Assembly (NCBI RefSeq): GCF_026011735.1
Contig: NZ_BRVN01000019.1
Coordinates: forward strand, 1 to 59,973
DNA: 59,973 bases
Source: Dietzia sp. NCCP-2495
Lineage (GTDB): Bacteria; Actinomycetota; Actinomycetes; Mycobacteriales; Mycobacteriaceae
Direction: 5' to 3'
In this document: one piece after another, positions 38,978 through 53,836 of the stretch
Layout: every line of letters starts with the position of its first letter
Numbering within the stretch: the stretch's first letter is position 1
Made by a program: the position numbers and the translations under genes
The notes under the pieces: model-generated
What the model saw: only the letters and a program-made list of their open reading frames with translations
The model's database searches: none
What the model was told of the DNA's origin: nothing

Positions 38978-39115
38978 ATGCGGGGCGGCGGCAGCCGGAC
39001 GAGAGCCACACCCTGAATGCAGGAGAGCCGGAGTCGCCGGCCACTGCCTGGGAGTTGATCGCCACCCGCCAGCGCACTCGTCCTACTTGTCAGATGTGGA
39101 TGCAATAGTGCGTTC

Positions 39116-40261
39116 ATGACGACGTACGGCAACGATTCGACTCCCACGATGGAGCTGATGCGGCTTGGGCCCTTCACACCCGGGCGAAACGCCGACCCCG
39201 CTATCGTCGCGGTCAAACGCGCACACGTGCGTGACCTTCACGTTGCGCCAATCAACGCTATCGCCGACGCCGTAGCTGACGCCGAAGGAATCGCCCGAGG
39301 CCTAGTTCCGTACGTCGATCCCCAACTCGGCGGAGTCGAGGCCGAGGTGCTCGCTCTACTGGACAACCCGTCGACCAAGGCGGAAGCTGGAACTGGATCC
39401 GGGTTACTGAGCCTCGAGAACGACGACGGTTCCGCCCGTCGGTGCGCCGGGATCTACAACGACTTCGGGCTGACTCCACAGCAGGTGGTGCACTGGAATG
39501 TCGCACCGGCCCCAATCTCTGGCACCAAGAATGGTCGCTCTTCCGCAGCAGAGCGCGCACGCGGCGCCCGCTGGCTCAGCGAATTACGCGCTCTCCTCCC
39601 GAACTTGAAGGTGGTGCTTCTCATGGGGGCCATGGCCCGCGACGGCTGGGTGCGATCCGGACTCTCCTCCGCGGGGTTGGTCATTCCAGCTGATGTTCCC
39701 CACCCCTCCGGCAAAGGGATGGCTAACCCGGGAGCCCCTGAACGGCTGTATCGCGCGATGACCGAGACGATGACCGTCTTGAACGGGCCCGAGTGCCCAT
39801 TCCCGCTCGTCCCTACCTTGAGCACCGTCCAAAAGTCCGACGCCCCGCTGCGGCCATCGACGTCCCCAGAGGCCCCGCCCCAGCCGTCCAGCTCTGTCAC
39901 TCAACCTCTCGACAGCGAGCTTTGGGGCTGGTGGCCCACTTTCGAGCACTACAGTGCGGGCTCCCCGCCGTGGGGCACCTCGAAAAACCTCGGCTCCGTC
40001 GAGGCTGCGATCGACAGCCACAGGGGCGCGCCACGAAAGAAAAGTCCGATCGCTCGCCTTACCCCAGCAGGGTGGGCCCTGATGGCGAAGCGCGGATCAG
40101 GTACCACCGAGGAGATGAAACCCGACCAAGCCGGCAAGTACGAACGCGCTCGGGCGGGCGGGCCCTGGGGAAATCAAGGCCCTATTCCGCCAGAGGCCGA
40201 GTTGCATAGGACGACGATCGACCTCGACGTTTCGCGACGTCCAAGCGGGTCAGGCGCGTAG
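39116..40261 (+). CDS. uracil-DNA-glycosylase-like superfamily protein
   Basis: Predicted 381-aa protein. The region VPYVDPQLGGVEAEVLALLDNPS (about 64-86) resembles UDG motif 1 with an Asn-Pro; RRCAGIYNDFGLTPQQVVHWNVAPAPI (108-134) resembles the SUDG Asn block; and DVPHPSGKG (193-201) is an HPS-type motif 2. A C-terminal half from about 260 is unrelated (WGWWPTFEHYSAGSPPW and a basic segment). It lies head to head with ku. Codon use seems less GC-biased than its neighbours. A DNA-repair role is inferred; glycosylase activity is not shown. Confidence 0.68.
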   Translation: MTTYGNDSTPTMELMRLGPFTPGRNADPAIVAVKRAHVRDLHVAPINAIADAVADAEGIARGLVPYVDPQLGGVEAEVLALLDNPSTKAEAGTGSGLLSLENDDGSARRCAGIYNDFGLTPQQVVHWNVAPAPISGTKNGRSSAAERARGARWLSELRALLPNLKVVLLMGAMARDGWVRSGLSSAGLVIPADVPHPSGKGMANPGAPERLYRAMTETMTVLNGPECPFPLVPTLSTVQKSDAPLRPSTSPEAPPQPSSSVTQPLDSELWGWWPTFEHYSAGSPPWGTSKNLGSVEAAIDSHRGAPRKKSPIARLTPAGWALMAKRGSGTTEEMKPDQAGKYERARAGGPWGNQGPIPPEAELHRTTIDLDVSRRPSGSGA

Positions 40262-40535
40262 AGCACAACATCCATCGGGCGAGGTCTCGCGAGCCCGTGA
40301 AGGAATTGCACTCGCCACCCCAGCCAGAGGTCCTCGGTCGCGTGGTGATCTCGGCTGTCCGCCCAGCCTGTTCAGCTGCGTGCCGGCGATACCGGCCAAC
40401 CGGGCGGCGAATGAGGGCCGAGGTCGCTCACCTCGTCGTCGTCACCAAGAAACGGCGACCCACACCCACGCGCCAGGCGGCACCGCCCACCGATCGGCCG
40501 ACGGCCACGCCGGAGGCACCTGGAAAGCTGTCCCC
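40262..40535. other. 274-bp intergenic region
   Basis: Between the UDG-like gene and the third TauE gene. An in-frame extension of the TauE gene reaches to 40380 but is Arg/Gly/His-rich and has no family similarity. No regulatory element is evident. Confidence 0.45.
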
Positions 40536-41327
40536 ATGCCCGCCGACGTCGCGCCCCTGCTCCTGCTCGTGGCGGCGTCGGCCGTCATCCTCGGGACCGT
40601 GCTGCAGCGGGTCAGCGGGATGGGTGTCGGGCTCGTGGTCTCGCCGACGTTGGCCCTGCTTCTGGGGCCCGTCGCCGGAGTGCCACCGACCAACATCACA
40701 ACCACCGTCTCCGCGGCCCTCATCGCGATCACGCTGTGGCGCGACATCGACTGGCGCCGCTACCTCCACCTGGCGCCGCTGATCGTCGTGGGGTCCGTGC
40801 CCGGTGCCCTCCTCGTGGGCGCTGCCGACCGCAGCTGGCTCGAGGTGGTGATCGGCACTGTTCTGCTCGGCACCCTCGTCTTTACCGCACTCGTGCGCAT
40901 CCCGCCGGTGGGCGGCCGGCGGCCGGCTGCAGTGGCTGGCACGGCCGGAGGATTCCTCAACACCGCGGTGGGCGTGGCCGCGCCCGCGATGCTCGTCTAC
41001 GCGCAGGCCACGGGGTGGAACCAGCGGTCCTTCGCCGCGACCCTGCAGCCGATCTTCTTCACCATGGGCGCGACCTCCGTCATCACCAAGGTCGGTCTCG
41101 AGGCCGCGCCGATCTCCGGGCTGCCGCCGATCGGCGTGATCGGGCTGGTTGTGGCTATGGTTCCGATCGGCATTCTTCTGGGTGGCGCGGTGGCCACGCG
41201 AGTGTCCGCCACCGTGGGGCGACGGGTCGCCGTCGTCGTCGTCACCCTCGGGGCTCTCACCCTCCTCGGTCGAGGGATCGGGGGGGTTGGCCGGGGTGCT
41301 CTGAACGGTGAGCGGACCTCGCCGTGA
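40536..41327 (+). CDS. TauE/SafE family permease (copy 3)
   Basis: Predicted 263-aa membrane protein with about eight helices. VSGMGVGLVVSPTLALLLGPVAGVPPTN and GTAGGFLNTAVGVAAPAMLVYAQATGW are the two Gly-rich repeats. The ATG at 40536 (MPADVAPLLLL) is used because upstream in-frame residues do not look like a membrane protein. It is more divergent from copies 1 and 2 than they are from each other. It has no sulfur neighbours, so the substrate is unknown. A remnant of a similar gene tail lies 170 bp downstream. Confidence 0.83.
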   Translation: MPADVAPLLLLVAASAVILGTVLQRVSGMGVGLVVSPTLALLLGPVAGVPPTNITTTVSAALIAITLWRDIDWRRYLHLAPLIVVGSVPGALLVGAADRSWLEVVIGTVLLGTLVFTALVRIPPVGGRRPAAVAGTAGGFLNTAVGVAAPAMLVYAQATGWNQRSFAATLQPIFFTMGATSVITKVGLEAAPISGLPPIGVIGLVVAMVPIGILLGGAVATRVSATVGRRVAVVVVTLGALTLLGRGIGGVGRGALNGERTSP

Positions 41328-41494
41328 CGGTCGACGCGCCGCGGGCCTGTTCGCGCCGAGGAGACACAATGGGGCCATGGCATCCCCGGTTGCCCGCAGC
41401 CGTCATCGCCACGGTCCGCGACAGCGCATGGCTTCCCCTCGGGGCGGTCGATGGACGATCTCATCAGTAGCCACGCCTGAGCGGTCAGGCTGTT

Positions 41495-41590
41495 ACGCGG
41501 GTCTCGGCGGCGGTGGGGCGACGGGTTGCCGTCGTCGTCACCCTCGGGCTCTCAGCCTCCTGGGGCGAGGGGCCGCGGGCCCGGCCGGAA
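41495..41590 (+). pseudogene. remnant of a TauE C-terminus (tail duplication)
   Basis: The stretch 41495-41575 repeats the end of the TauE gene (41196-41280, offset 299): it reads TRVSAAVGRRVAVVVTLG against TRVSATVGRRVAVVVVTLG, losing one codon and then the frame. The 5' part of such a gene is absent. It ends just before the inverted repeat at 41599. Confidence 0.7.
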
Positions 41591-41598
41591 TGTTCTAA

Positions 41599-41668
41599 GG
41601 CGTGTCTCCCATAACTGTGTGGTGACCCGCGAGACCGTGGGCCACCACACAGCTATGGGAGACACGCC
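41599..41668. mobile_element. 26-bp terminal-inverted-repeat element, IS-end-like
   Basis: GGCGTGTCTCCCATAACTGT and the following GTGGTG (41599-41624) form an inverted repeat with 41643-41668, 25 of 26 positions matching, around an 18-bp core. Long, nearly perfect arms with GG/CC ends are unlike the pure-GC terminators here and suggest two abutting insertion-sequence ends or a miniature element. No target-site duplication is seen and no transposase is present. Confidence 0.6.
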
Positions 41669-41735
41669 CTGGCCTGGCGTCTGCGCACGCATGGCAAGCG
41701 CCAAGTCCTGTGGCCGCCGCGGGCGGGCGCTTGCT

Positions 41736-42044
41736 CTATGCGGGCTGCTTCTCCGCGACGACATCGAGCTGCTCGATAACGGGCTCCCCGAAAAGCTCAC
41801 CCGTCTTCTCACCGAGCGCTTTCGCGACCTCACCCGACAGGTGCGCCTGGCGACCGTCGTCGGCAAATGCGTCAAAGATCCCGAACGACGAGGGGCCGAA
41901 CTGTATCGCGAACCACCGGACGGTCTTGGGCTCACCCTCTACGATCGACAGGCCCTGGTTCAAGAAGTCGCGGACTTCTTCCTCCCTGCCGGGCAGTGCT
42001 TCGAGGCGCACCAGAAGCGCTTTGCTGACCTTTGTTGCTGCCAT
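41736..42044 (-). CDS. antibiotic biosynthesis monooxygenase-type protein (ABM copy 2)
   Basis: Predicted 102-aa dimeric ferredoxin-fold protein. VSKALLVRLEALPGREEEVRDFLNQG starts the fold, with WFAIQFGPSSFGIFDAFADDGRQAHLSGE following, as in the ABM family of quinol or polyketide monooxygenases. It has 50-60 percent residue matches by eye to copy 1 at 43950, so it is a duplicate. No Shine-Dalgarno is obvious. Two GGATNNATCC palindromes sit just upstream. Last gene in the minus-strand redox cluster. Confidence 0.82.
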   Translation of the reverse strand: MAATKVSKALLVRLEALPGREEEVRDFLNQGLSIVEGEPKTVRWFAIQFGPSSFGIFDAFADDGRQAHLSGEVAKALGEKTGELFGEPVIEQLDVVAEKQPA

Positions 42045-42047
42045 CTT

Positions 42048-42071
42048 GGATCAATCCTATTGGATCTATCC
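42048..42071 (-). promoter_or_regulatory. two GGAT-NN-ATCC palindromes, candidate operator
   Basis: GGATCAATCC (42048-42057) and GGATCTATCC (42062-42071) repeat 14 bp apart, 4-27 bp upstream of the ABM-2 start. The region is AT-rich for this genome and includes a run resembling a promoter. Confidence 0.5.
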
Positions 42072-42101
42072 TTTGCTCGGTTTTGCGTTCTTCGGAATGG
42101 A

Positions 42102-42515
42102 TTAAAACGCCGCTACAGCTGCCTCCGCGACCGTCTGATCCTGCTCGCCGCTACCCCCGCTCACTCCTACCGCCCCGACGACCAGGCCATCGCGGCGCAG
42201 CGGGATGCCGCCAGCAAACACCATGACCCTGCCATGGTTCGAGTTCTGGATGCCGTAGAACTGCTCGCCGGGCTGAGCATTTTCGGCCAGGTCCTTGGTG
42301 GCGATGTCGAAGGCGCGCGCCGTAAAGGCCTTGTTGATCGAGATGTCGACGCTGCCCACCCACGCGTTGTCCATGCGAATGTGGGAAACCAAGTTAGCAC
42401 CCGCGTCGACCACCGCGATGTTGCTCGGCGACCCGATCTCTTCCGCCTTAGCCTGAGCGGCGGCGATCACGCGCTGAGCGTCCTCGAGCGATACGGATTC
42501 GAGCTTGATGGTCAT
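42102..42515 (-). CDS. GlcG/HbpS family haem-binding protein
   Basis: Predicted 137-aa protein of the GlcG/HbpS fold. MTIKLESVSLEDAQRVIAAA, then AVVDAGANLVSHIRMDNAWVGSVDISINKAFTA and GGIPLRRDGLVVGAVGVSGGSGEQDQTVAEAAV, are the family's signature. HbpS of Streptomyces binds haem outside the cell and signals redox stress; others are in glycolate operons. No signal peptide is seen here. GGAGG seven bases before the ATG (42515) fixes the start. Placement with oxidases and ABM proteins fits a redox role. Confidence 0.87.
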   Translation of the reverse strand: MTIKLESVSLEDAQRVIAAAQAKAEEIGSPSNIAVVDAGANLVSHIRMDNAWVGSVDISINKAFTARAFDIATKDLAENAQPGEQFYGIQNSNHGRVMVFAGGIPLRRDGLVVGAVGVSGGSGEQDQTVAEAAVAAF

Positions 42516-42677
42516 GAGTACCTCCTGGTTGTGTGCCACATGCCAATCGGGTCGACCGATGGGCTAAGGCTGTCTCGCCTGAGTTAGACGTCATGCCGGT
42601 GCTTTCGCCGAGCGTACCCATTTCGGCTCGCGCTCGCGGAGAACCCATTGAGTGCGTCCGTTCTGGGGTCAGGCGAA

Positions 42678-43808
42678 CTATCGCAGGGCTTCGCCGAGGC
42701 GAGCGGCGGGCGTGAGGTCGGCGTCTAGACCGCCGCCGGTCGCAGCCCGGGCAAGAGCGCGACCCAGCGCAGGTGCCTGCTTGAACAGATTGTGACCGGC
42801 CACAAAAAAGACAGAGCCTTCCTCCCACACGGCCACGCCGTCCTCGCTCCATGGGAGGTCGGTCACCCAGCAGTGAAGAAAGTCGCGCGGCTCTGGGTGG
42901 AGACCGGGCAGCGCCCGTGTCACGTATTCGCGTGCGCGTTCGTCCAGCGATCGAATCGCCGCAGGGTCGATGAACGTTCCGTCGTCGCGGACGCCCACGG
43001 TTTCGCTGAGTCCGACCGAATAACTGCTGTTGCCCGGTAGCGGCGTCGCGTATACGCCGACTTCGCCGAAGACACCGCTGCCGTCCTGCAGGCACGCGAC
43101 TCGTGCCGGGGCGGCGCCTTTCACGTCGAAGGTCAGCCGGACGTGTGCGGCAAGGCGAACCGGCAGCGACAGGCCGACGGTGCGGGCCAGGCGGGCGGTT
43201 TCGCGGCCGGCGCACACGACCACCTTGGAGTAGACAGCCCGGTCGCTGACGCTGCGCACCTCGACCGTCCCATCGGCGCGGGGATCGATGGAGATGACCT
43301 CTGCGGTGGTGACGGCCTCTGCGAGGGCACCCGCGAGTGCCGTGATCGCGGCGCGGGTGCGGATCGCGCCGCCCGACTCGTCGAGCATCGCTGGCCCCGA
43401 GTACCCAGCGAGCAGCGGCATTCGCTGGGCGAGCTCGGCTGCATCGATCTCGTGCGCTTCCACGCCGCCGACCTGGTCGAGCACCCGCAGCCGCGCCAGG
43501 GCGCTCTCTCCGATCGCCACGACACCGTCTGATGAGACCAGCTCGACGTCGAAGTGTTCGGCCCACTCATCCCATACGCCGCGGCTTTCGCGCGCGAAAG
43601 CGACGAGTCGCGGGTCGTCGTGGGCATGCCGGAAGATCCGCGACTCGCCCGCGGACTGACCCGTTCCGGGCAGACCGGCCTCGTACAAGCGCACCGGAAC
43701 GCCCTGCTCCCGCAGCGCGTACGCCGTCGACAGACCGACGATTCCGCCCCCGATCACTGCTACCTCGGGTGAACGCGTCGGGGCAACGTCGTCGTCAATT
43801 ACTGTCAT
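42678..43808 (-). CDS. FAD-dependent amine oxidase of the SolA/sarcosine oxidase type
   Basis: Predicted 376-aa flavoenzyme. The dinucleotide fold VAVIGGGIVGLSTAYAL lies at 17-31 and the C-terminal FFVAGHNLFKQAPALG near 335-350. C313 (DFLHCWVTDLPW) sits where monomeric sarcosine oxidases carry the covalent FAD cysteine. Such enzymes oxidise N-methyl amino acids to formaldehyde, glycine and H2O2. The ATG at 43808 begins MTVIDDDVAP. It lies in the same strand run as a formaldehyde dehydrogenase, which would use the formaldehyde. The true substrate is unknown. Confidence 0.85.
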   Translation of the reverse strand: MTVIDDDVAPTRSPEVAVIGGGIVGLSTAYALREQGVPVRLYEAGLPGTGQSAGESRIFRHAHDDPRLVAFARESRGVWDEWAEHFDVELVSSDGVVAIGESALARLRVLDQVGGVEAHEIDAAELAQRMPLLAGYSGPAMLDESGGAIRTRAAITALAGALAEAVTTAEVISIDPRADGTVEVRSVSDRAVYSKVVVCAGRETARLARTVGLSLPVRLAAHVRLTFDVKGAAPARVACLQDGSGVFGEVGVYATPLPGNSSYSVGLSETVGVRDDGTFIDPAAIRSLDERAREYVTRALPGLHPEPRDFLHCWVTDLPWSEDGVAVWEEGSVFFVAGHNLFKQAPALGRALARAATGGGLDADLTPAARLGEALR

Positions 43809-43949
43809 CGCGATTCCTCGATCTATTAGGGATGGGCGATAGGCCGTAAGAGGAGGGGCCGCTGCCACGACGTCAACGGGCTGTGTCAGCCCGAAGTCAC
43901 CGCGCGCAGCGACCCTTCATGTCCGGGTCAGTAGTCCCGGTCTGTGGTG

Positions 43950-44252
43950 TCAGGCGGGAAGCTTGGAGCCCAACACGTCGAGCTTCTCGATCGTGGGTTC
44001 GGAGAACAACTTGCCGGTGTTTTCGCCGAGCGCTTCCGCCACGGGTCCGGACAGGTGGGCATCACGTCCGGAGTCGTCCGGAAAGACGTCGAAGATGCCG
44101 AACGAGGTCGGCCCGAGGCGGATCGCGAACCACGCGGTGGTGGCCTGCTCTCCCTCGACAAGCTCACGGCCGCTGTCGAGGAAGTCCTTAACCTCGTCCT
44201 CCTTGCCGGGCAACGCGTCAAACCTGACCAGCAATCCTTTGGTCACACTCAT
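43950..44252 (-). CDS. antibiotic biosynthesis monooxygenase-type protein (ABM copy 1)
   Basis: Predicted 100-aa ABM-fold protein: MSVTKGLLVRFDALPGKEDE, VKDFLDSGRELVEGEQATTAWFAIRLGPTSFGIFD, then DAHLSGPVAEALGENTGKLF. It closely matches copy 2 at 41736, including the C-terminal DVLGSKLPA versus DVVAEKQPA. AGGAGA precedes the ATG (44252). The start lies 11 bases from pfpI, so it belongs to that transcript. The substrate is probably a quinone or peroxide-like compound; inference only. Confidence 0.86.
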   Translation of the reverse strand: MSVTKGLLVRFDALPGKEDEVKDFLDSGRELVEGEQATTAWFAIRLGPTSFGIFDVFPDDSGRDAHLSGPVAEALGENTGKLFSEPTIEKLDVLGSKLPA

Positions 44253-44263
44253 GATGTCTCCTC

Positions 44264-44818
44264 TTACTTTGTAGTGGTGTCCGCGATTTGGGACACGAGC
44301 GCGTCGGAGAACGCCGGCAGGTCCTCCGGCGAGCGGCTGGTGATGAGATTCTTGTCGACCGCGACCTCCTGGTCGACGACGTTCGCGCCGGCATTGCGCA
44401 GATCCGTGCGGATGCTCGGGAAGGACGTCAGGGTGCGACCGGTGGCCACGCCGGCCTCGATCAACGTCCACGGTCCGTGACAGATCGCCGCCACGGGCTT
44501 GCCACTCTCGACGAAGTCGCGGACGAAGGAAACGGCGTCCTTGTCGACCCGGAGCTGGTCGGGGTTCACCGTGCCGCCGGGAAGCAGCAGGGCGTCGTAA
44601 TCGCCCACCGAGGCGTCGGCGACCAGCCCGTCGACGGTGAACGTGCCCGCTTCATCCAGATCGTTCTCACGGGCCTTGATCTCGCCGTCGTGGATCGAGA
44701 GGACCTCGGTCTGAGCGCCGGCCCGGTCCAGTGCTTCGCGGGGTTGCTCGAGCTCGACGCGCTCGACCCCGTCCGCGGCGAGGATCGCGACCCTCTTGCC
44801 CTGCAGATCTGCTGCCAT
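44264..44818 (-). CDS. DJ-1/PfpI family protein (class I glutamine-amidotransferase fold)
   Basis: Predicted 184-aa protein of the PfpI/YhbO type. The nucleophile elbow AICHGPW carries C113-H114, the acidic partner E19 lies in AADGVERVEL, and the pre-motif YDALLLPGGTVNPDQLR is intact. Known members act on methylglyoxal or glycated substrates and protect against carbonyl stress. It starts one base after the stop of the upstream formaldehyde dehydrogenase, so the two are tightly coupled. Confidence 0.9.
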   Translation of the reverse strand: MAADLQGKRVAILAADGVERVELEQPREALDRAGAQTEVLSIHDGEIKARENDLDEAGTFTVDGLVADASVGDYDALLLPGGTVNPDQLRVDKDAVSFVRDFVESGKPVAAICHGPWTLIEAGVATGRTLTSFPSIRTDLRNAGANVVDQEVAVDKNLITSRSPEDLPAFSDALVSQIADTTTK

Positions 44819-44819
44819 G

Positions 44820-45986
44820 TCAGTTCGCCTTCTTTCCGCTGGACATACCTGGCTTGATGACGACCTTGGTCCAACCCTCGGACCTGGCGTCGAAGTTCCT
44901 GTAGGCGTCGGCGGCCTCTTCCAGCGAGATCTCGTGGGAGACGATCCAGGACGGCTTCGCCTTGTCAGCCGCGATCAGGTCCCGGAGCTGGCGGTTGTAC
45001 CGCTTGACCGGGGCTTGACCGTTGCCCATGGTCTGCCCCTTGAACCAGTGGGTGCCGAAGTCGATGGCCGCCTTGCCCTGCTTGGCCAATTCGCTCTTGG
45101 CCCCCGGGTCCTGGGGGACGAACACGCCGACGGTGCCGATTCGTCCGGTGAAGCGGACCGCGTTGATGAGCATGTTCAGCGTGAGGGCGATGTCTTCGTT
45201 GCCCTGGGGATCGTGGGCCTGGTAGCCCACGCATTCGCAACCACGGTCGGCTCCGAGCCCCATCGTCTCGTCCAGCACCGCCTGCACCGGGTCGGTCTTG
45301 GAGTCGTCGATGGCAATCGCACCGATCTGCTCAGCCAGCGCGAGCCGGTCGGGGTGGCGATCGACCACCATCACCTTCGCGGCCCCCTTGATCGTCGCGG
45401 ACAGGGCAGCCATCAGCCCCACCGGTCCGGCCCCGGCGATCACGACGCTGTCGCCCGGGATCACGCCGGCCATCTCGGTTGCGTGGTAGCCGGTGGGGAA
45501 GATGTCGGAGAGCATGACGTAGTCGTTCTCCTTCTCCTGCGCATCCTCACCCAGGCGCAGCGCGTTGTGGTCGCCGAAGGGGACCCGGAGCAGCTCCGCT
45601 TGGCCTCCGCCGTACGGGCCCATGTCCGCAAATCCGTATGCCGCACCGGCGGCGGACGGGTCAGGCTGCGTGGTCAGGCAGTAATTCGTGAGACCGCGCT
45701 CGCAGTTCTTGCAGAACCCGCACGAGATGTTGAAGGGCAACACGACCCGGTCGCCCACCTTGACCTTCTCCACGCCCTTACCGATTTCCACCACCTCCCC
45801 CATGTTCTCGTGGCCGAACGTGCGGCCCTGCTCGAAGGAGGTCCGGCCCTCGTACATGTGCAGGTCCGAGCCGCAGATATTGGTCGTTGTCATTTTGACC
45901 AGCACGTCGGTGGGACGTTCGATCTTCGCGTCCGGAACATCCGTAACCGCGACATCTCTGGGTCCTTGATAGACGACAGCCTTCAT
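44820..45986 (-). CDS. zinc-dependent alcohol dehydrogenase, glutathione-independent formaldehyde dehydrogenase type
   Basis: Predicted 388-aa medium-chain dehydrogenase. Catalytic zinc ligands C38 (TNICGSDLHMYEG), H in FGHENMGEV and a later Asp/Cys are present; the structural zinc loop SCGFCKNCERGLTNYC is complete. GAGPVGLMAALSAT is the NAD fold. Long insertions after 230 (GCECVGYQAHDPQGNEDIAL) mark the Pseudomonas formaldehyde dehydrogenase type. GGAGG lies before ATG (45986). First gene of the cluster with pfpI and ABM genes. Confidence 0.9.
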   Translation of the reverse strand: MKAVVYQGPRDVAVTDVPDAKIERPTDVLVKMTTTNICGSDLHMYEGRTSFEQGRTFGHENMGEVVEIGKGVEKVKVGDRVVLPFNISCGFCKNCERGLTNYCLTTQPDPSAAGAAYGFADMGPYGGGQAELLRVPFGDHNALRLGEDAQEKENDYVMLSDIFPTGYHATEMAGVIPGDSVVIAGAGPVGLMAALSATIKGAAKVMVVDRHPDRLALAEQIGAIAIDDSKTDPVQAVLDETMGLGADRGCECVGYQAHDPQGNEDIALTLNMLINAVRFTGRIGTVGVFVPQDPGAKSELAKQGKAAIDFGTHWFKGQTMGNGQAPVKRYNRQLRDLIAADKAKPSWIVSHEISLEEAADAYRNFDARSEGWTKVVIKPGMSSGKKAN

Positions 45987-46159
45987 GCTGAGCCTCCAAT
46001 GGTTGTGCTTGGCAAACCTCTGACTTCCTCACACTCACACTGAAACGACGCCGCGTCAACCAAATGGAGACCAACAGGCTATGCCTCACGCCGCCCCAAC
46101 AGACGCCGTGGTCTGCGCAAAGCAGGTCTGCAGATCGCCGCTCGCACCTATCGGATGTG
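45987..46159. other. spacer upstream of the formaldehyde dehydrogenase gene
   Basis: Upstream region of the minus-strand redox cluster. TTGACG (around 46059, minus strand) could be a -35, but no matching -10 was found. Further right is a degraded ORF. Confidence 0.4.
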
Positions 46160-46365
46160 GACCTCCCCCGGCGGCCGGTGGACCTGGTCGACCTCACCGC
46201 CACCTACGTCGGCGACGATCTGGGCACCACGACCCTCATCGGCGTCTCGTACGTGACCGAGGACGGCACGGTCATCCAGTGATATGACCACCTCGCCGTC
46301 GTCCCCCACGCCCTGAACGGCGAGCTGTATCCCGGCGGCACCGCCACCACGCCCCAGATCGGAGC
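46160..46365 (+). pseudogene. small ORF broken by an in-frame stop
   Basis: An open frame encodes DLPRRPVDLVDLTATYVGDD, then LGTTTLIGVSYVTEDGTVIQ, followed by TGA at 46280-46282. In the same frame after the stop, protein-like sequence continues: YDHLAVVPHALNGELYPGG. It has no good start codon. Probably a degraded gene; family not recognised. Confidence 0.4.
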
Positions 46366-46367
46366 GC

Positions 46368-46693
46368 ATGACCGCCTGGACCACCCGCGCAGAGACCGAC
46401 GCCGACATCCCCGCGATCCGCGACATCATCCTGCGCGCTTTTCACACTGCCTCCGAGGCCGACCTCGTCGACGCCCTCCGCCCCTGGACGCGGCTCAGGC
46501 GATGGGCGAGAAACTCGTCGTGGTGCTGGGCCATGCCGGCTACTACCCACGATTCGGCTTCCGCCGCGCCTCCAGCTTCGGCATCCGCGCGTCATTTGAC
46601 GCCCCCGACGAGGCGTTGATGGCCCTGCCCCTCGACGACTCCCCTGCCGTCCCGGGCGGCGTCATCCGCTATCCCGCGGCATTCGGAGTATGA
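46368..46693 (+). pseudogene. GNAT acetyltransferase with an internal deletion
   Basis: The N-terminus MTAWTTRAETDADIPAIRDI, then ILRAFHTASEADLVDALR, is a GNAT start. It joins, out of frame, directly to the tail LDAAQAMGEKLVVVLGHAGY, then YPRFGFRRASSFGIRASFD. The intervening 60-70 residues with the acetyl-CoA-binding motif A are missing, and the junction at about 46485 shifts the frame. The whole is 325 bp; a full gene would be near 500 bp. It is likely non-functional. Confidence 0.85.
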
Positions 46694-46765
46694 CCGCGCG
46701 CAGTCGCGGCGACCGCGGGACCGTGAGGGCGGGGTGACCTCGTCGTCGTCGTAGGCTTGGCGACC

Positions 46766-47101
46766 ATGTCTGCGACCGCGGACCTACACCAGGAGCTCGA
46801 CGCCGCCCGGGACCGGTTCGAGCAGTACCGCGTCTCCGTAAGCGCGGCGTTCGACGATCGGCCCGCAGGCGAGCTGTCCCAGGCCGTCGAGGCGGTGCTG
46901 CCGGACCTGGCGTTCCACGAGGGACAGGCGGTCGCAGCGGCAGTGGCTCTGGACCGATTGGCCGCCGGCGCCGATCTGGCCGCGGTGATCCGGGCACTGG
47001 ATCTGCTGCTCCTCGAGCAGCAGGCCGCGCGGCGCAGCCTGGACTTCATGTCCGGCGTGGCCCGGGTCCTCGTCAACGTGAGGCGGCGCGAGGCGGGTTA
47101 A
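46766..47101 (+). CDS. small helical hypothetical protein
   Basis: Predicted 111-aa Ala/Leu-rich helical protein: MSATADLHQELDAARDRFEQ, YRVSVSAAFDDRPAGEL and following. It contains no membrane segment. A leader with GTC repeats lies just upstream. The next gene at 47140 is also small and helical; the two may form a unit (for example a toxin-antitoxin or paired regulator), but nothing in either sequence shows this. Confidence 0.5.
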   Translation: MSATADLHQELDAARDRFEQYRVSVSAAFDDRPAGELSQAVEAVLPDLAFHEGQAVAAAVALDRLAAGADLAAVIRALDLLLLEQQAARRSLDFMSGVARVLVNVRRREAG

Positions 47102-47139
47102 CCGGGTGGCGCGGCGGGTAGTCGGGCGGGGGCGGCGGC

Positions 47140-47412
47140 ATGGCGAGGCGGCTGCACGCCCAGTTCGAGCTCCTCGCCCCTCTCCTGGCCCGCGAGGGCG
47201 TCGATGTGTGGACCGCGACCGTCGCCGACCTCGACGCCGGAATGGAACGCGCCAAGCAGCGCCACGCAGCCGCCGTCGCCCGGGTCCGCGCCGTCCTGAA
47301 CGCCCACTCCAGTTTCTGGCTCGACACGTACCGCCAGAACTACACCAGCACGCCCGGCGGCTGCGGCCGCCGGGCGTTCGTCGTGTTTGTTGTTGATCGT
47401 CACCACCGATAG
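47140..47412 (+). CDS. small helical hypothetical protein overlapping a terminator
   Basis: Predicted 90-aa protein: MARRLHAQFELLAPLLAREG, VDVWTATVADLDAGMERAKQ, then HAAAVARVRAVLNAHSSFWL. The last part (PGGCGRRAFVVFVVDRHHR) is encoded by a 12-bp GC stem-loop at 47350-47377 and the following T-rich run, and overlaps the cynS stop by 13 bp. The real stop could be earlier, or the frame could be an error. Function unknown. Confidence 0.45.
   Translation: MARRLHAQFELLAPLLAREGVDVWTATVADLDAGMERAKQRHAAAVARVRAVLNAHSSFWLDTYRQNYTSTPGGCGRRAFVVFVVDRHHR
47350..47377 (+). terminator. intrinsic terminator with U-rich tail
   Basis: ACGCCCGGCGGC (47350-47361) and GCCGCCGGGCGT (47366-47377) pair perfectly around TGCG and are followed by TCGTCGTGTTTGTTGTT. 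It lies inside the 90-aa ORF and faces the end of cynS. Confidence 0.75.
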
Positions 47413-47849
47413 TCGAGGAACTTTCCGTCGAGGGTGATCACCACCCGGTCCCCATCGGGGTCCGGCCGGCGCTGAAAGTCGACCTGGAAGTTGATCGCGC
47501 TCATGATGCCGTCCCCGAACTCCTCGTGGATGAGGGCCTTGAGCGCCGGACCGTACACCGCCAGCGCCTCGGTGAGCCGGTAGATGGTCGGGTCCGCCAT
47601 CTGATCCGGCGGCGTCCCGCGGCTGGGCTGCAGGGCCAGGCTCTCGGCGACATCCTCACCCAGGCCGAGCAGTTCGCAGACCGACCGTGCCTGCTGGGCC
47701 GTCATCGGATGTTGGCCCAGCAACGCGGCGGTGGTCCACACCAGTGGGGCGCCCAGGTGCTCGGCCAACTCCGACCACGTGCGGCCCTGGCGGATACGCG
47801 CGGAGTCGACGAGGGCGGCGGCGTCGCGCTTGGACATGATCGGGTTCAC
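47400..47849 (-). CDS. cynS: cyanate hydratase (cyanase)
   Basis: Predicted 149-aa cyanase, which converts cyanate and bicarbonate to ammonia and CO2. Catalytic R91, E94 and S117 sit in IYRLTEALAVYG, then IHEEFGDGIMSAIN, with the N-terminal helix domain before. The GTG (47849) follows AGGAGG; MSKRD (47837) is a possible start. The formate/nitrite-type channel upstream on the same strand ends 47 bp before it and may move cyanate or nitrite; a joint operon is likely. Confidence 0.9.
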   Translation of the reverse strand: MNPIMSKRDAAALVDSARIRQGRTWSELAEHLGAPLVWTTAALLGQHPMTAQQARSVCELLGLGEDVAESLALQPSRGTPPDQMADPTIYRLTEALAVYGPALKALIHEEFGDGIMSAINFQVDFQRRPDPDGDRVVITLDGKFLDYRW

Positions 47850-47896
47850 GGGGGATTCCTCCTGGTGGGGTGTGGTCGCGGTGAGGGTCGGCCGGG

Positions 47897-48754
47897 TCAG
47901 GCCGGGGCGCCGGTGGGTTCCACGTCGGCCTGGGCGGACTCGGGCTTCAGCGGCCGCCGCGCCTTGGTACGGGCGTGGGTGACGTACAGGGTCAGGCCCA
48001 CGAAGAGCAGGCCGCCGACCAGGTTCCCGGCGACCGTGGGGATCTCGTTCCACACGAGGTAGTCGCTCAAGGAGAAGTCGCCGCCCAACATGAGTCCGGT
48101 CGGGAACAGGAACATGTTGACCACCGAGTGCTCGAAGCCCATGTAGAAGAACAGCATCACGGGCATCCACATGGTCAGTGCCTTGCCGCTGACGCTGGTG
48201 GACATCATGGCGGCGACCACGCCGGTGGAGACCATCCAGTTGCACAGCACGCCACGGAAGAACAGGGACGCCATCCCGGCCGCGCCGTACTCCTTGTAGC
48301 CCAGGGTCCGCGCCTCGCCGATCTCCCCGAGGCGCTGGCCCACCTCGTCGGGCGCGACGTTGAACCCGTAGGTGGTGATGAACGCGATGAGGAACGCCAC
48401 CGTCAGCGCACCGGCGAAGTTGCCGACGAAGACCAGGCCCCAGTTGCGGAGCATCCCGCCGACCGTGACGCCTCTGCGCTTGTCGAGCAGGGCCAGCGGT
48501 ACCAGCGTGAACACGCCGGTCAGGAGGTCGAAGCCGAGCAGGTACAGCAGAATGAACCCGACGGGGAACAGCACCGCCCCGAGCAGGGCGCTGCCCGTCT
48601 GCACGGTGACCGTCACGGCGAACGCCGCCGCCAACGCCAGTATCGCCCCGGCCATGAAGCCGCGGATCAGGGTGTCGCGGGTGGACATGTGAACCTTCTT
48701 AGCCCCGGCGTCGATCATCGCCCGGGTGAAGTCCTCTGGTTGAACGTAGGACAC
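47897..48754 (-). CDS. formate/nitrite transporter (FNT) family channel
   Basis: Predicted 285-aa membrane protein with six helices of the FocA/NirC/HcsA type. GFMAGAILALAAAFAVTV, GFDLLTGVFTLVPLALLD and NWMVSTGVVAAMMSTSVSGKAL match the family. A GTG start with GGAGG upstream is used. It sits upstream of cynS on the same strand, so the transported anion may be cyanate or nitrite rather than formate; inferred from context. Confidence 0.9.
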   Translation of the reverse strand: MSYVQPEDFTRAMIDAGAKKVHMSTRDTLIRGFMAGAILALAAAFAVTVTVQTGSALLGAVLFPVGFILLYLLGFDLLTGVFTLVPLALLDKRRGVTVGGMLRNWGLVFVGNFAGALTVAFLIAFITTYGFNVAPDEVGQRLGEIGEARTLGYKEYGAAGMASLFFRGVLCNWMVSTGVVAAMMSTSVSGKALTMWMPVMLFFYMGFEHSVVNMFLFPTGLMLGGDFSLSDYLVWNEIPTVAGNLVGGLLFVGLTLYVTHARTKARRPLKPESAQADVEPTGAPA

Positions 48755-49069: not shown

Positions 49070-50035
49070 ATGACCGTCTCAACCGCCTCCGTCCGCGCCG
49101 TCGGAGTAACGACCTACGGTGGCCCCGACGCCCTGCAGGTCGTGGAAGTCCCCAAGCAGGAACTCGGCCCCACCGAAGTCCGGGTGCGTGTCACCGCCGC
49201 GACCGTCAACCCCACCGACACCTACACGCGCAACGGCTCCCGCTCGAAGACCGGAACGCCGCGCGGAGCCGCGGACGTCCCCGGCATGGACATCGCCGGA
49301 ACACTCATCGAGATCGGCGAGGACGCCGACACGTCCCTGTCCGTGGGCGACCGGGTCATGGGCATCGTGGTCCCCCGCGACGACCACGGTGCGTACCGCG
49401 AGGACATCGTCCTGCCCGCCCGGTCGATCACCGCCGCGCCCCGCAATGCCGACGACATCGCCGCGTCGACGCTCCCGATGAACGGCCTCACCGCCCGGCG
49501 CGCCCTCGACCTGCTGGCGCTGAAGCCCGGCCAGGTTCTCGCGGTGACCGGGGCGGCGGGCTCGACCGGCGGATACGTCATCCAGCTGGCCAAACACGTC
49601 GGCCTCATCGTGGTCGCCGACGCGTCCGAGGCGGACGAGGAGCTCGTGCGGTCACTCGGCGCCGATCAGATCGTGCGGCGCGGCGAGGGCGTCGCCGACC
49701 GCATCCTCGAGCTCTACCCCGACGGCGTCGACGGCCTCTTCGACGGATCCGTGCAGGAGGCCGCCGTGCTCCCCGCGGTCAAGACCGGCGGTGGGGTAGC
49801 GACGGTGCGGTGGTATCGGGGCGACGGAAAGCGCGACCTGCGGGTCCATGCCGTGAGCGTGGTCGACATGGCGGAGGAACAGGAAAAGCTCGACGAGTTG
49901 CGGCAGCTGGCCGAGGACGGCGTGCTCACCCTCCGGTTGGCGGACAGCTACGCGCCCGAGGACGCGTGGCGGGCCCACGAACGACTCGAAGCCGGCGGGA
50001 CTCGGGGGCGGCTGGTCATCGACTTCACACGGTGA
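49070..50035 (+). CDS. NADPH:quinone oxidoreductase-like medium-chain dehydrogenase
   Basis: Predicted 321-aa zinc-independent MDR protein. MTVSTASVRAVGVTTYGGPD, then RVTAATVNPTDTYTRNGS, GDRVMGIV, VTGAAGSTGGYVIQLAKH (nucleotide fold) and the C-terminal GTRGRLVIDF fit the quinone oxidoreductase branch. No zinc ligands are seen. GAAAGAGG precedes ATG. Substrate unknown. Confidence 0.88.
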   Translation: MTVSTASVRAVGVTTYGGPDALQVVEVPKQELGPTEVRVRVTAATVNPTDTYTRNGSRSKTGTPRGAADVPGMDIAGTLIEIGEDADTSLSVGDRVMGIVVPRDDHGAYREDIVLPARSITAAPRNADDIAASTLPMNGLTARRALDLLALKPGQVLAVTGAAGSTGGYVIQLAKHVGLIVVADASEADEELVRSLGADQIVRRGEGVADRILELYPDGVDGLFDGSVQEAAVLPAVKTGGGVATVRWYRGDGKRDLRVHAVSVVDMAEEQEKLDELRQLAEDGVLTLRLADSYAPEDAWRAHERLEAGGTRGRLVIDFTR

Positions 50036-50221
50036 CACGGACCGGGCTGGCCGGTGGGCGGGAGCTTGCCAGCCAACCGGCACCCACCTCGAGTCCGACC
50101 ACGGGCCCCGACAAGCCCAGCGTCGAGACGTCGGTGACCACCGCCGAGGCATGAGCCACCCTCGGCAGGCACGCACCGAGGCCGGCTCTCGGTAGACGAA
50201 CCACAGCCGCCCGCGCCCCGT

Positions 50222-50256
50222 CGGCCGGTCCCGCGCACGATGCGCGGGACCGGCCG
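50222..50256. terminator. 16-bp stem bidirectional terminator
   Basis: CGGCCGGTCCCGCGCA (50222-50237) and its exact complement (50241-50256) around CGA. A further CACAGCCG/CGGCTGTG pair encloses it. It lies between the convergent oxidoreductase and the DUF262-DUF1524 gene, 46 bp before the latter's stop. Confidence 0.85.
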
Positions 50257-50302
50257 CCGGCTGTGCGGACCCTCGTCGTCGTCACCTCTCCCGAACGGTG
50301 AC

Positions 50303-52309
50303 CTAGCCTCCGCCCAGCTGCGCGAGGTCGTCATTGAGAATCGTGACCATCTCCCGATGGTGCTTCTCGATGGAATCCCCGTCCCACACCCCGTCGTTCT
50401 CTCTAACCTCATCAGCCATCAGCGTGAGCTTCGGACTCTGCTTGATGATGCCTTCCTTGCGCACCTTGGTCGCCGGCAGCTCATTGCTGAACTTCGAGTT
50501 GGCGCTCACGCTGACCAGGGCAAGGTTGCCGAAGAGATGAAGCCGCGGATCATCCCCGGCCAGCGCATCCCAGCCCGTGTTGTCGCGGTTAGCGTACTGC
50601 GGGAAGAAGTGCTCCACCGAGTTGCGGAACTGGAACTCGAACTTCGGATCCCGGGCACTGTCCGGGCCATAGCCCTGGGCGAGGAGATAGTCCAGGTAGG
50701 TGTACACGATCCGCTCGATGGCAAAGCCCACCGGACCGGACTCGGTCGGCATCGACTCGCGGACCTTGCCACGGATGAAGGTGCGCAGCTCGTCGGCGAC
50801 CAGACGGCCCACCTGCTGGCGGGGCAACGCGGGATCGACAAGCCGCAGCACGTGAGTGATCCAGTGCATGGTCCTCGGCGAGGTATACGTGACGCGGAGG
50901 AGCGACTGGAGGAGGAGCACGTCGCGGGTCTGGTCCCCTGCCGCCGCCTCGACCTGGTCGTCGGACTCCTCCCCCGTCGGCGAGAACGCGCGAGGGTACC
51001 TCGGGCTGACCTTGCTTCTCTCGCCGGAACCACTCCGCTCGCCCCTCGCGAGTCGCTTGAGCGACCACGCGCCGTCCTCCACGTGGGTGCCCACGAACTC
51101 CCGCTTGAGAACGGCGTTGTCCAGGACGAACTTGCACCGCAGCAACGTCTCCATGAACGTCTTCACGCGGTCGGCCCGCCGTTCGGTGTTTCTGAACTCA
51201 TCGTCGAAGAGCCGAACCAGCTTGGAATCGTCCAGGCGACCGTCATCCTCGTCGTCGTCCCCCGCGCGAGCGTGCATCACCTTGAGGGCGTGCAGAAGCA
51301 GGCTGGGAAAGCGGATCGGCGACTCGAATCGCTGGGTCTCCTGCAGTTCCGTCGCGGGCTCGTCCTTAGTGTGCGCATAGCCCCTAATCGCCTCAGAGAG
51401 GGCCACGGATTCCACGCTCGTCGCATCCGCGGTCCTCTGCTGGCCGCGGACCTCCACCAGTGCGTCGAACCGCGCCACCTCGAGTCCGTCCCAGTCCCGT
51501 CCGAAGATCGCCGCACGGAGATCCGTGTCACCCGGCGTCAACGCCATCTGGATGTAGCGATCCATGTCCGCGCAGGCGTCCCAGATCCACGCGAGGCACG
51601 CGCGCTGGCGCTCGGTGAGATCCGCGTCTGCCGAAACCCCCGAGCTGACGGATCCGAGATAGCTCATGAGCCGGGCCTTGACGATGTCCACCTGCTCGAG
51701 CTGCTGACCGCGGGTGTTCATCACCTCGAAGTACCTGTTGAGGTCGGTGTCCCCGGGAAGCGCTGCTCGCACCACGCAGACCTGCTCGAGAAGGAAACGC
51801 GCGAAATGCCCCAGGTCGGCGCCTGCGTTCCTCAGTCGCGCGAGCCCCTCCTTGAGCTGCTTGTACCCGGTGAGGATTCCGGACCCCTCGTCCTCCTCGG
51901 AATCCGAGAGGTTCTGCAGCGCTTGGGAAGCGGCCCGCCGCGATGCGTAGGTCAGTTGAGCGGTGGCCTCGAGGTCGCGACCGCCGAGCCCCTCCGCCTC
52001 CAGGGATTCTCGATTCAGCCGATGCAGGAGCATGAACAACGTCGTGAGTCGCTGCTGGCCGTCGACCACCTCGTACGTGGTGACGTCTTCGCTGTCGTGC
52101 TCGGACTTCGGGGCCACGATGAGATTGCCCAGGAAGTAGTCGCCGACGTTGCTCGTCGATGCGTTCCAGATGTCATCGAGGAGCTGGTCGATCTGCTCTT
52201 TGCCCCACGCGTAGTTCCGCTGATAGATGGGGATCTCGTAGTGCACGCCCTGTTGGCCGAAGAGCTCTTTGACCGTCAGCAGTTCAGGCGTCAGTTGATT
52301 GGTCATCAT
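50303..52309 (-). CDS. DUF262-DUF1524 protein, GmrSD/SspE-like nuclease
   Basis: Predicted 668-aa protein. The N-terminal DUF262 (ParB/Srx-like NTPase) shows IPIYQRNYAW (26-35) and DGQQRLTT (83-90). The C-terminus matches DUF1524, an HNH-type His-Me nuclease: EHFFPQ gives H567xxP570, followed by FGNLALV (594-599), N604 and N609 and K615. The start (MMTN, 52309 or 52306) overlaps the stop of the next DUF262 gene by four bases (ATGA), so the two are translated together. Architecture resembles GmrSD type IV restriction and SspE; targets unknown. A shorter reading as a single effector cannot be ruled out. Confidence 0.88.
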   Translation of the reverse strand: MMTNQLTPELLTVKELFGQQGVHYEIPIYQRNYAWGKEQIDQLLDDIWNASTSNVGDYFLGNLIVAPKSEHDSEDVTTYEVVDGQQRLTTLFMLLHRLNRESLEAEGLGGRDLEATAQLTYASRRAASQALQNLSDSEEDEGSGILTGYKQLKEGLARLRNAGADLGHFARFLLEQVCVVRAALPGDTDLNRYFEVMNTRGQQLEQVDIVKARLMSYLGSVSSGVSADADLTERQRACLAWIWDACADMDRYIQMALTPGDTDLRAAIFGRDWDGLEVARFDALVEVRGQQRTADATSVESVALSEAIRGYAHTKDEPATELQETQRFESPIRFPSLLLHALKVMHARAGDDDEDDGRLDDSKLVRLFDDEFRNTERRADRVKTFMETLLRCKFVLDNAVLKREFVGTHVEDGAWSLKRLARGERSGSGERSKVSPRYPRAFSPTGEESDDQVEAAAGDQTRDVLLLQSLLRVTYTSPRTMHWITHVLRLVDPALPRQQVGRLVADELRTFIRGKVRESMPTESGPVGFAIERIVYTYLDYLLAQGYGPDSARDPKFEFQFRNSVEHFFPQYANRDNTGWDALAGDDPRLHLFGNLALVSVSANSKFSNELPATKVRKEGIIKQSPKLTLMADEVRENDGVWDGDSIEKHHREMVTILNDDLAQLGGG

Positions 52310-53664
52310 GCCCCCAGGCGTTCGAGAAGAGTGCGGAGTTCCTTCATGTGGTCGGGCCGGTCCTGTCGCTCCAACGGTCCCATTACGAGGCGGCGCAGAT
52401 CCTCCGGCCGTTCGGCATTACGCAGAAGTCCGAAGGCAGAAGCGTTCTCGTCCGTGCTGCGTGCGTGATTATCGACCGATGTCAATTGCACCCGTATCAA
52501 AGCGGTCCGGAGGCTATAGGACCACCGGAAAAGCCGGCGTTTCGCTTCAGAGAGATCGTGGTCGCCGAACTTGTTCGTGTAATAGAGCAACGCGGCGAGG
52601 TATAGCTCGGACACGTACCGAAACTTCGCCTTGGCTGGTTGTTCGTCGAACTCCACCGACGACGAGACGAAATTCTCCCATTCCGGCTCCGTGAATCCAT
52701 CGCGGCGCAAGTGCTTCACCTCGTCCAGCATGAACGAGACCATCTCGAAGAACGGGCGGCCCGCCTGCACGGGTGCCTCCAACTGAAAGCGGGTCCGTAG
52801 CCCGTCCCGGTCGGACGGGGTGGTGTCCGCGGACCATGCCGTCAGCACCGGGACGACGGACTGAGCCGCGCGGTGATAGCGGGCCATCGGGGAGCTCGCG
52901 GCCCTTGCCGTCACTCCCTTGAACTCATCGACGTGGTCGGCGCTGAACGCCGGCGCCGACATCCCCCGCGACCACCTCCGGATCCGCCACAGGTAGGTGG
53001 AGAAGAGGCGATCCAGGTCCCCGTCCGGGACGGCCTCCCACGCCTCGACCAGGGCGACCATCATGAGGCTGGATTCTCCGCGGATCTCCCGCAGGTGATA
53101 GGCCTTGAGCAGGTCGTGTGGCAGGAGGGACTTCCCGCGATAGTTCTGGGAATCGAAGACCCGGAACGCCTCGTCGGCGTCATTCGTCTCGATCCGCATC
53201 ACCACGCAGTTGTCGCGGATGAAGGCGGCGAGCCGGCTCCGGTCGTCGTCGATCGCGCTGACGCGGCTGGCGAGTTCCCGCCAGACCTTCGTGATCGGTG
53301 CGGCCGGGTCGGCGCGGTCCCAGGTCTCGCGATCGACGGCATGCGGGTCCGGCTCGTCGAGAAGCTTCAGCAGCATCGTCAACGTGAGGAGCCGCTGCTG
53401 ACCGTCCACCACGTCCGGAGAATGGGCGCGATCCTCTCGGTGGAGGATCACCGCACCCAGCACGTATGAGGTCTCGAACGCCCTGTCGTCATTCGTCGCC
53501 CCGCTTACGGTCTGGTGGAATGCCGAGCGAATATCGTCGAGTAGTTGCGTGGCCGTCTCCGGCTTCCACCGATAGGGCCGCTGATAGGGCGGGATGCGCA
53601 GATCCTCCGCGAGCAGTTCTCGAATTGTCACGCGCTTCACGCCGTGCTCGCGACTGATGGCCAC
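52306..53664 (-). CDS. DUF262 protein, partner without nuclease domain
   Basis: Predicted 452-aa protein. DUF262 motifs IPPYQRPYRW (24-33) and DGQQRLLT (87-94) are well kept, with SYVLGAVILHRE between. The second half (from about 220) is helical and has no HxxP or GNL/N-K set, so DUF1524 is missing or unrecognisable. It is the first gene of the pair and divergent from ligD across 172 bp. Suggested roles: regulator, substrate-recognition or NTPase partner of the nuclease-bearing DUF262 protein. Confidence 0.86.
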   Translation of the reverse strand: MAISREHGVKRVTIRELLAEDLRIPPYQRPYRWKPETATQLLDDIRSAFHQTVSGATNDDRAFETSYVLGAVILHREDRAHSPDVVDGQQRLLTLTMLLKLLDEPDPHAVDRETWDRADPAAPITKVWRELASRVSAIDDDRSRLAAFIRDNCVVMRIETNDADEAFRVFDSQNYRGKSLLPHDLLKAYHLREIRGESSLMMVALVEAWEAVPDGDLDRLFSTYLWRIRRWSRGMSAPAFSADHVDEFKGVTARAASSPMARYHRAAQSVVPVLTAWSADTTPSDRDGLRTRFQLEAPVQAGRPFFEMVSFMLDEVKHLRRDGFTEPEWENFVSSSVEFDEQPAKAKFRYVSELYLAALLYYTNKFGDHDLSEAKRRLFRWSYSLRTALIRVQLTSVDNHARSTDENASAFGLLRNAERPEDLRRLVMGPLERQDRPDHMKELRTLLERLGA

Positions 53665-53688
53665 GCGGCCCCCTTCTTAATTGACGTC

Positions 53689-53756
53689 CGTGAACATCTC
53701 ACTTTATGTGCCGACTGTTCACGCTGTTACTCCGGATATGGTTCGTTCGACGAACC
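53689..53756. promoter_or_regulatory. two inverted repeats in the DUF262/ligD divergent promoter region
   Basis: CGTGAACA (53689-53696) pairs with TGTTCACG (53716-53723); GGTTCGT-TCG-ACGAACC (53740-53756) is a perfect palindrome. Both are in the 172-bp gap, between DUF262 and ligD starts. Their half sites resemble but do not match the actinobacterial SOS box. Confidence 0.55.
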
Positions 53757-53836
53757 AGTAGTCCGCCTGCTCCCGCAAGCAGCGTCCGCGCGCCGAGCCG
53801 GTCGCCAGTGTCCGAGTCGGATGCAAGAGTGGTCCC

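Follow-up and report, generated by a model that had tools for sequence, protein, structure and literature searches.

How can two partners of one repair pathway, encoded head to head, come to lie far apart on a chromosome? The question is raised by ku and ligD, the genes of non-homologous end joining (NHEJ), in Dietzia sp. NCCP-2495, where they were located on a stretch of 59,973 nucleotides (contig NZ_BRVN01000019.1 of assembly GCF_026011735.1, forward strand), hereafter the window. A first-pass annotation, made from the sequence alone, had described the two genes as divergent and about 14.8 kb apart, and this was borne out, with a measured gap of 14,859 bp. The ku gene (37913-38977, minus strand) was recognised by Pfam (Ku, PF02735, E 1.7e-51) and has a conserved M-R-S-I-W start; the true start, judged by conservation, lies at 38959, 18 nt inside the frame. 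Pfam also recognised ligD (53837-56455, plus strand), with its polymerase, phosphoesterase and ligase domains. The genome yielded one match for each gene, and the closest named relatives of its Ku are those of D. cinnamea, D. maris and Dietzia sp. SLG310A2-38A2. The split is not an assembly artefact, because split pairs also occur in G002, G005, G014 and G017, which are assembled in one to four contigs (genomes are denoted here by G and loci by L). It is likely that the gap is an accessory hotspot, begun by entry of DNA into a compact divergent ku/ligD promoter region early in Dietzia and later turned over. The segment found in the window is layered, consisting of several acquisitions and remnants and not of a single insertion.

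A search of the genus covered 23 Dietzia genomes, that of the window included. Fifteen of them carry a homologous divergent ku-ligD pair on one contig, with gaps of 65, 949, 2705, 4189, 4319, 5186, 5459, 5814, 9117, 9394, 9430, 9842, 11583, 13489 and 14859 bp. The genes are adjacent only in G009 (65 bp), and the same conserved genes enclose a variable interval of 0.95-14.9 kb, with differing cargo, in the other 14, among which the window holds the 14,859-bp gap. The gap is cut by contig ends in G007, G010 and G013, where 8 kb or more of it is visible; G006 has only a piece of ligD, G018 a distant ku and no ligD, and G022 neither gene. The 121 open reading frames (ORFs) called in the gaps of 18 genomes formed 54 clusters, 35 of which occur in a single genome, a high turnover. 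A gene of the TauE/SafE family is present in 15 of these 18 gaps and is the only cargo in G004. The suggestion of an accessory hot spot made in the first-pass annotation is therefore supported by cargo that differs between Dietzia gaps. That annotation had held that a segment conserved in close relatives, or genes that never lie together, would argue against insertion; the segment is missing from all 17 other Dietzia gaps compared, and ku and ligD lie together in G009 and in outgroups.

Adjacency is probably the ancestral state, because, among ten further genomes of the family that have both genes, four (G027, G029, G031 and G033) keep the pair head to head within 100 bp. The remaining six include a tandem arrangement (G034), a pair about 58 kb apart (G032) and four with the genes on different contigs. 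Named loci of Gordonia, Williamsia and Jongsikchunia also have ku and ligD adjacent. In G009, 74 bp separate the two start codons, and two putative promoters of about 35 bp stand back to back, each with a -10-like hexamer, recognised by eye, 6 bp before the start. An insertion into a shared promoter region, as first proposed, is thus upheld in part: DNA probably entered there, as the adjacent genes and back-to-back promoters of G009 suggest, but not as one 14.8-kb insertion.

A minimal ku promoter is predicted at 38960-39001 (minus strand), with the -10 hexamer CATACT (38966-38971, complement) 6 nt before the ATG, and a minimal ligD promoter at 53798-53836 (plus strand), with the -10 hexamer AAGAGT (53825-53830) also 6 nt before the ATG; both leaders are promoters by sequence prediction. 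On the ku side, conservation with the four closest relatives stops at CCGGACG (38995-39001), and all 10 pairs that can be formed from the window, G007, G008, G010 and G014 lose upstream homology at 42-48 nt. The ligD promoter has the edge CCGGTCG (53798-53804). Of 136 genome pairs, 102, close relatives among them, lose ungapped homology 38-55 nt upstream of ligD; 17 further pairs, all with G021, had been set aside since the contig of that genome starts 38 nt upstream. The break would therefore lie between the two minimal promoters, a placement that is well supported on the ligD side and less so on the ku side. The first-pass annotation had left the ancestral ends undecided, and these are likely the two promoters, at about 38995-39001 for ku and 53798-53804 for ligD; the target duplication or tRNA that it had proposed to seek at 38978 and 53836 was found at neither.

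The motif CCGGWCG occurs in direct copies, at 14 of the 17 edges on the ku side and 14 of the 18 on the ligD side; the adjacent G009 has one CCGG. Such a distribution could be expected if CCGG[A/T]CG at the promoter junction were a site-specific recombination site capturing cassettes in the manner of an integron. This explanation appears quite improbable, as the edges coincide with the outer limits of promoters of about 40 nt, which accounts for their conservation, and as the 7-mer is also scattered through the gaps, mostly within genes, without marking cassette borders; on these two grounds an integron-like site was rejected. Moreover, no recombinase was seen, and the entry point of an insert carrying a GmrSD-like gene pair is about 13 nt outside the ligD edge. 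CCGGWCG near both ends of the gap is better explained as a promoter edge.

That insert (50299-53784, minus strand) is the cleanest layer of the segment. It measures 3.49 kb against G008 and G010, both of which have an empty site, and it ends 52 bp before ligD; target duplication and terminal repeats were looked for at the insert and none was seen. It was probably gained in the window rather than lost in G008 and G010. The part with cyanase and a quinone-reductase-like gene seems to be older, and the TauE gene would also be an old layer.

Insertion of a single mobile element of about 14.8 kb into the ku-ligD interval, whether an island, a transposon or an integrated plasmid, would agree with the lower G+C content of the segment, with a palindrome of insertion sequence (IS) ends and with several plasmid-related pieces. 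The compositional check proposed earlier did show a gap of 66.8% G+C, against 69.7% in the remainder of the window, about the lowest value among 14.9-kb windows of this stretch (range 66.8-70.7%). It is nevertheless highly improbable that one element arrived whole, since its pieces differ in distribution: TauE, cyanase, a transporter and gene c3 are shared with other Dietzia gaps, whereas a redox operon and the GmrSD pair occur in none of the 17 others compared. Pfam results for ORFs of the gap in the window included no integrase, no tRNA was found in the window, and the GmrSD insert lacks a target duplication. At the gap ends neither a tRNA nor an att site was found, only the 7-nt motif near both. 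Rfam gave no match in the window at the gathering score, and the other Dietzia gaps contain one DDE transposase, in G007.

The conserved genes of the locus do not share one history. The ku gene of the window groups with G008, G010, G014 and G007 (support 97/98), its TauE with G019 (100/100) and its ligD with G015 (100/99), and the ku and ligD of G020 likewise fall in different clades. In approximately unbiased (AU) tests, ku rejected the ligD clade of G020, G002, G013, G003 and G005 (p 0.011), and ligD rejected the group of G020, the window, G008, G010, G014, G007 and G019 (p 5e-61). The group of the window with G008, G010, G014 and G007 was rejected by ligD (p 0.0028) and by TauE (p 0.0016). 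Identities of ku and of ligD show a correlation of 0.62 over 153 pairs. With their different nearest relatives, ku, TauE and ligD form a recombination mosaic, probably produced by homologous recombination, and the AU conflicts among them are the recombination in flanking genes that is looked for at a transfer hotspot.

Several points weigh against an entry of DNA between the promoters early in Dietzia. In a ligD protein tree rooted on three outgroups G009 lies outside the other Dietzia, with a modest support of 82 in the Shimodaira-Hasegawa-like approximate likelihood ratio test (SH-aLRT), in a quick tree whose long outgroup branches were flagged; both ku trees group G009 with G015 and G004, and a secondary loss of cargo in G009 is therefore possible. 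The two genes would then have been separate already in the Dietzia ancestor and adjacent in G009 through deletion, and gap deletions do happen, as with c6, c10 and c11 in the window. Such a course is unlikely, given that ku and ligD are neighbours in the same orientation in the four outgroups, and adjacent also in the named loci of Gordonia, Williamsia and Jongsikchunia, that G009 retains both promoters with nothing left over, and that the rooted ligD tree places it on the deepest branch. G001 lacks TauE, so that TauE may not have come first. The ku edge is less uniform when all 120 pairs are taken: homology ends at 39-49 nt in 34 and at 22 nt or less in 76 (15 of these involve G016, which has a shifted leader), and continues through a shared TauE in 10, G015 having been excluded by its start offset. 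The 34 exceptions at ligD involve G007, whose junction lies at -14, or G004, apart from three pairs in which homology extends further (58, 98 and 188 nt). The groups for the AU tests were picked after the trees had been seen, and the ku test had no more than 438 nt to work with, since the ku of G020 runs into the end of its contig. The gene caller was trained on the window and missed at least one gene (39116-40261), later revealed by plasmid similarity.

A last such point concerns the surroundings, which were compared in G002, G005, G014 and G017 by means of 38 genes in about 230 kb, each a four-way reciprocal best match. Among these genomes the TauE-ligD interval varies by 4.6 kb and the ku-TauE interval by 2.0 kb. 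To the right of ligD, differences above 3 kb were found in 5 of 28 core intervals, two of which involve order changes; this control is limited to four genomes, and its shared genes on that side extend only to about 50 kb. Left of ku, at least 65-100 kb are variable in three of the four genomes, with no return to the shared order within 120 kb in G014, and the left flank has only seven shared genes, partly reordered, in about 120 kb. A unique hotspot was rejected on account of the variable intervals to the right of ligD and the broadly variable left flank. The ku-ligD gap is thus one active slot in a plastic zone. The chromosome terminus was also rejected as a cause, ku lying 0.82-0.88 Mb from dnaA in the same genomes of 3.7-3.9 Mb.

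From the observed states, layers, empty site and tree conflicts, an order and direction of events can be proposed for the likely hotspot. The ancestor would have had ku and ligD head to head, with about 74 bp between the starts and promoters of about 35 bp back to back, as in G009. Foreign DNA, perhaps a TauE gene, would have entered between the promoters, breaking neither. Lineages would then have gained, decayed and deleted further DNA, which in the window may have brought a plasmid-related gene beside ku, a formaldehyde-dehydrogenase-like operon, likewise plasmid-related, beside IS21-type ends and the 3.5-kb GmrSD insert. Finally, recombination in the conserved flanks (ku, TauE, ligD) would have reassorted pieces between species, and the different nearest relatives of the three genes are attributed to this step. 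The NHEJ pathway probably still works, since each gene seems to keep its own promoter, and only the head-to-head coupling would have been lost. In a more speculative and very improbable scheme, NHEJ itself would join linear fragments into breaks at the promoter junction, making this a point of recurrent entry of plasmid DNA; the blunt, duplication-free GmrSD insert would be such a capture, and the splits in Dietzia and Mycobacterium would be independent.

Most items that the first-pass annotation had listed in the gap were confirmed, namely an intact TauE, a duplicate of the TauE tail, an inverted repeat, a redox cluster (41736-45986), a cyanase and a DUF262 pair; a GNAT remnant at about 46480-46690 was recognised by eye in an open frame, to which Pfam gives no match. 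Three genes had been overlooked: a 381-aa gene (39116-40261), a formate/nitrite transporter (47897-48754) and a quinone-reductase-like gene (49070-50035). The first of these, next to ku, is intact (plus strand) and plasmid-related, with 62% aa identity over almost its full length to a protein of a Dietzia sp. oral taxon 368 plasmid. That homologue is annotated as uracil-DNA glycosylase, which is the sole source of the name, and Pfam, NCBIfam and PDB gave no match to the 381-aa protein. It is followed by the intact TauE/SafE gene (40536-41327, plus strand), identified by homologues and by Pfam on the longer ORF 40380-41327, and by remnants (41332-41597, plus strand) made up of pieces of gene c4 and the TauE-tail duplicate (41495-41597). 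Two IS21-type element ends are fused head to head at 41599-41668, with 33-nt arms that are 91% complementary, a 4-nt spacer and no interior. Their assignment comes from a copy of the terminal sequence in L220, where an IstB_IS21 gene (4.3e-38) lies at a distance of about 0.4 kb; this was the only copy inspected for IstB.

The redox operon (41709-46107, minus strand) was recognised by Pfam and by DNA identity to plasmids. It encodes an ABM-like protein, an HbpS-like protein, a flavin adenine dinucleotide (FAD) oxidoreductase, a second ABM-like protein, a DJ-1/PfpI protein and a zinc alcohol dehydrogenase whose homologue is annotated as glutathione-independent formaldehyde dehydrogenase; the ABM names were taken from the plasmid annotation. 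DNA identity is 94.2% (909 bp) and 94.5% (2058 bp) to Gordonia hongkongensis plasmid p2 and 92.0% (2272 bp) to Dietzia kunjamensis pDK2035-77. Because the two blocks matching the Gordonia plasmid abut there, the FAD oxidoreductase and second ABM-like gene would be either absent from the plasmid version or gained in the window. Direct repeats of 21 nt (42594-42614 and 44012-44032, 95% alike), inside the two paralogous ABM-like genes, bound the part with the FAD oxidoreductase that is missing from that version.

Beyond the operon lies a decayed stretch (46184-47361, plus strand) with c24 pieces, the GNAT-like tail seen by eye, the c4 N-terminus and a c16 remnant; it also contains an ORF of unknown family (46727-47098), to which Pfam gave no match. 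The cyanase gene (47400-47849, minus strand, within ORF 47400-48245) was identified by Pfam and has 94.6% aa identity to that of G010. The formate/nitrite transporter gene (minus strand), named by Pfam on its orthologue in L062, has 97.8%. The quinone-reductase-like (MDR) gene c3 (plus strand) is found in 10 Dietzia gaps and is followed by the 3' end of gene c11 with its downstream region (50076-50298, plus strand); relative to G008, the window lacks c6, c10 and most of c11.

Within the insert, a 668-aa protein with GmrSD_N and GmrSD_C domains (50303-52309) and a 452-aa protein with GmrSD_N and DUF7834 (52306-53664) are encoded on the minus strand by genes that overlap by 4 bp, both recognised by Pfam. 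With GmrSD_N in both proteins and GmrSD_C in one, the pair has the domains of a GmrSD restriction system (DUF262 plus DUF1524-type). Both proteins contain the motif DGQQR, which we take to be typical of GmrSD-type (DUF262/DUF1524) enzymes, and PADLOC models match the pair partially, mainly in the N-terminal part. In comparison with GmrSD-type enzymes, the window has a two-gene form with a DUF7834 partner, for which a restriction-like function is predicted. A family search (E 1e-20) in 400 other genomes, among them at least 20 other Dietzia and all taken from a larger group, found a relative of the DUF7834 protein in only one, with an adjoining GmrSD partner in the same order. Plasmid relatives of the pair, at less than 60% identity, were matched in 969 records, of which 906 are from Klebsiella and 815 conjugative, and plasmid CP052282.1 carries both module genes side by side. 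The module of DUF7834 and GmrSD is thus common to actinobacteria and hundreds of mostly conjugative Klebsiella plasmids, its side-by-side order having been examined in one plasmid listing and one actinobacterial locus (L223).

Other loci of the genus and the flank of ku gave additional observations. G011 has a distant, adjacent ku-ligD pair (about 42% identity; L082) in 20-kb flanks that match no other Dietzia flanks compared, an apparent replacement of the NHEJ locus. In G021 (99% complete; L081) ligD stands at a contig start and no ku was found, through loss or an assembly break. The G019 gap contains a DUF4268 gene (L067 3174-3989) matching the PADLOC candidate defence family PDC-S11. In G015 the closest TauE match lies on another contig (C3:89742-90488, in L214), and its own gap has sigma-factor-like and DUF1295 genes. 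Beside ku in the window, a short-chain dehydrogenase gene (37033-37641) covers no more of the family model than its C-terminal two thirds; it is either truncated or its start was called too late, the frame reaching 37767.

Parts of the survey by Oliveira et al. (2017; PMC5635113) describe transfer hotspots, many of them without recognisable mobile elements and with recombining core genes at their flanks. As far as those parts go, the Dietzia gap is alike in its fast turnover between two conserved genes, few mobile genes and flank tree conflicts; it differs in that species of one genus were compared, with a local control of four genomes in place of a genome-wide threshold, and in that it occupies the promoter region shared by its two flanking genes, which are partners in a single repair pathway. 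Head-to-head pairs are also split in Mycobacterium. For M. smegmatis, part of the text of PMC11551767 gives LigD as MSMEG_5570 and Ku as MSMEG_5580. In 14 Mycobacterium/Mycolicibacterium loci, ligD was found 0.3-8.1 kb away in 11 and was not within the available stretch in L099, L107 and L110; ten (L097, L098, L100-L105, L119 and L136) have pairs split by 1.0-8.1 kb. The cargo there includes a PfkB-like kinase in all ten (by blastp to L097), a mannitol-dehydrogenase-like gene in seven, and a HAD hydrolase in three loci or a sugar ABC transporter in L105, Pfam having been applied to L097 and L105 only. This split is probably independent of that in Dietzia, because its cargo matches none of the Dietzia cargo. 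A survey of bacterial NHEJ genes (PMC7719229) classifies ku-ligD proximity, genes on different strands included, and in the part of it considered here counts genes up to ten apart as near, so that a split like that of Dietzia need not stand out; its main text does not contain the word Dietzia. A literature search by title found none on the ku-ligD gap in this genus.

At this locus the way in which two genes of a single repair pathway can become separated is in part open to view step by step. The locus also advises caution, as the head-to-head adjacency of ku and ligD is not stable. Hotspot turnover can here be mapped onto a tree, starting from a site that is probably empty and reaching 15 kb of cargo. 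The analysis also brings to attention the two-gene module of GmrSD and DUF7834, relatives of which occur commonly on conjugative plasmids. The process is an ordinary one, that of an accessory hotspot; the place is unusual and instructive, and the history of insertion there is partly readable.

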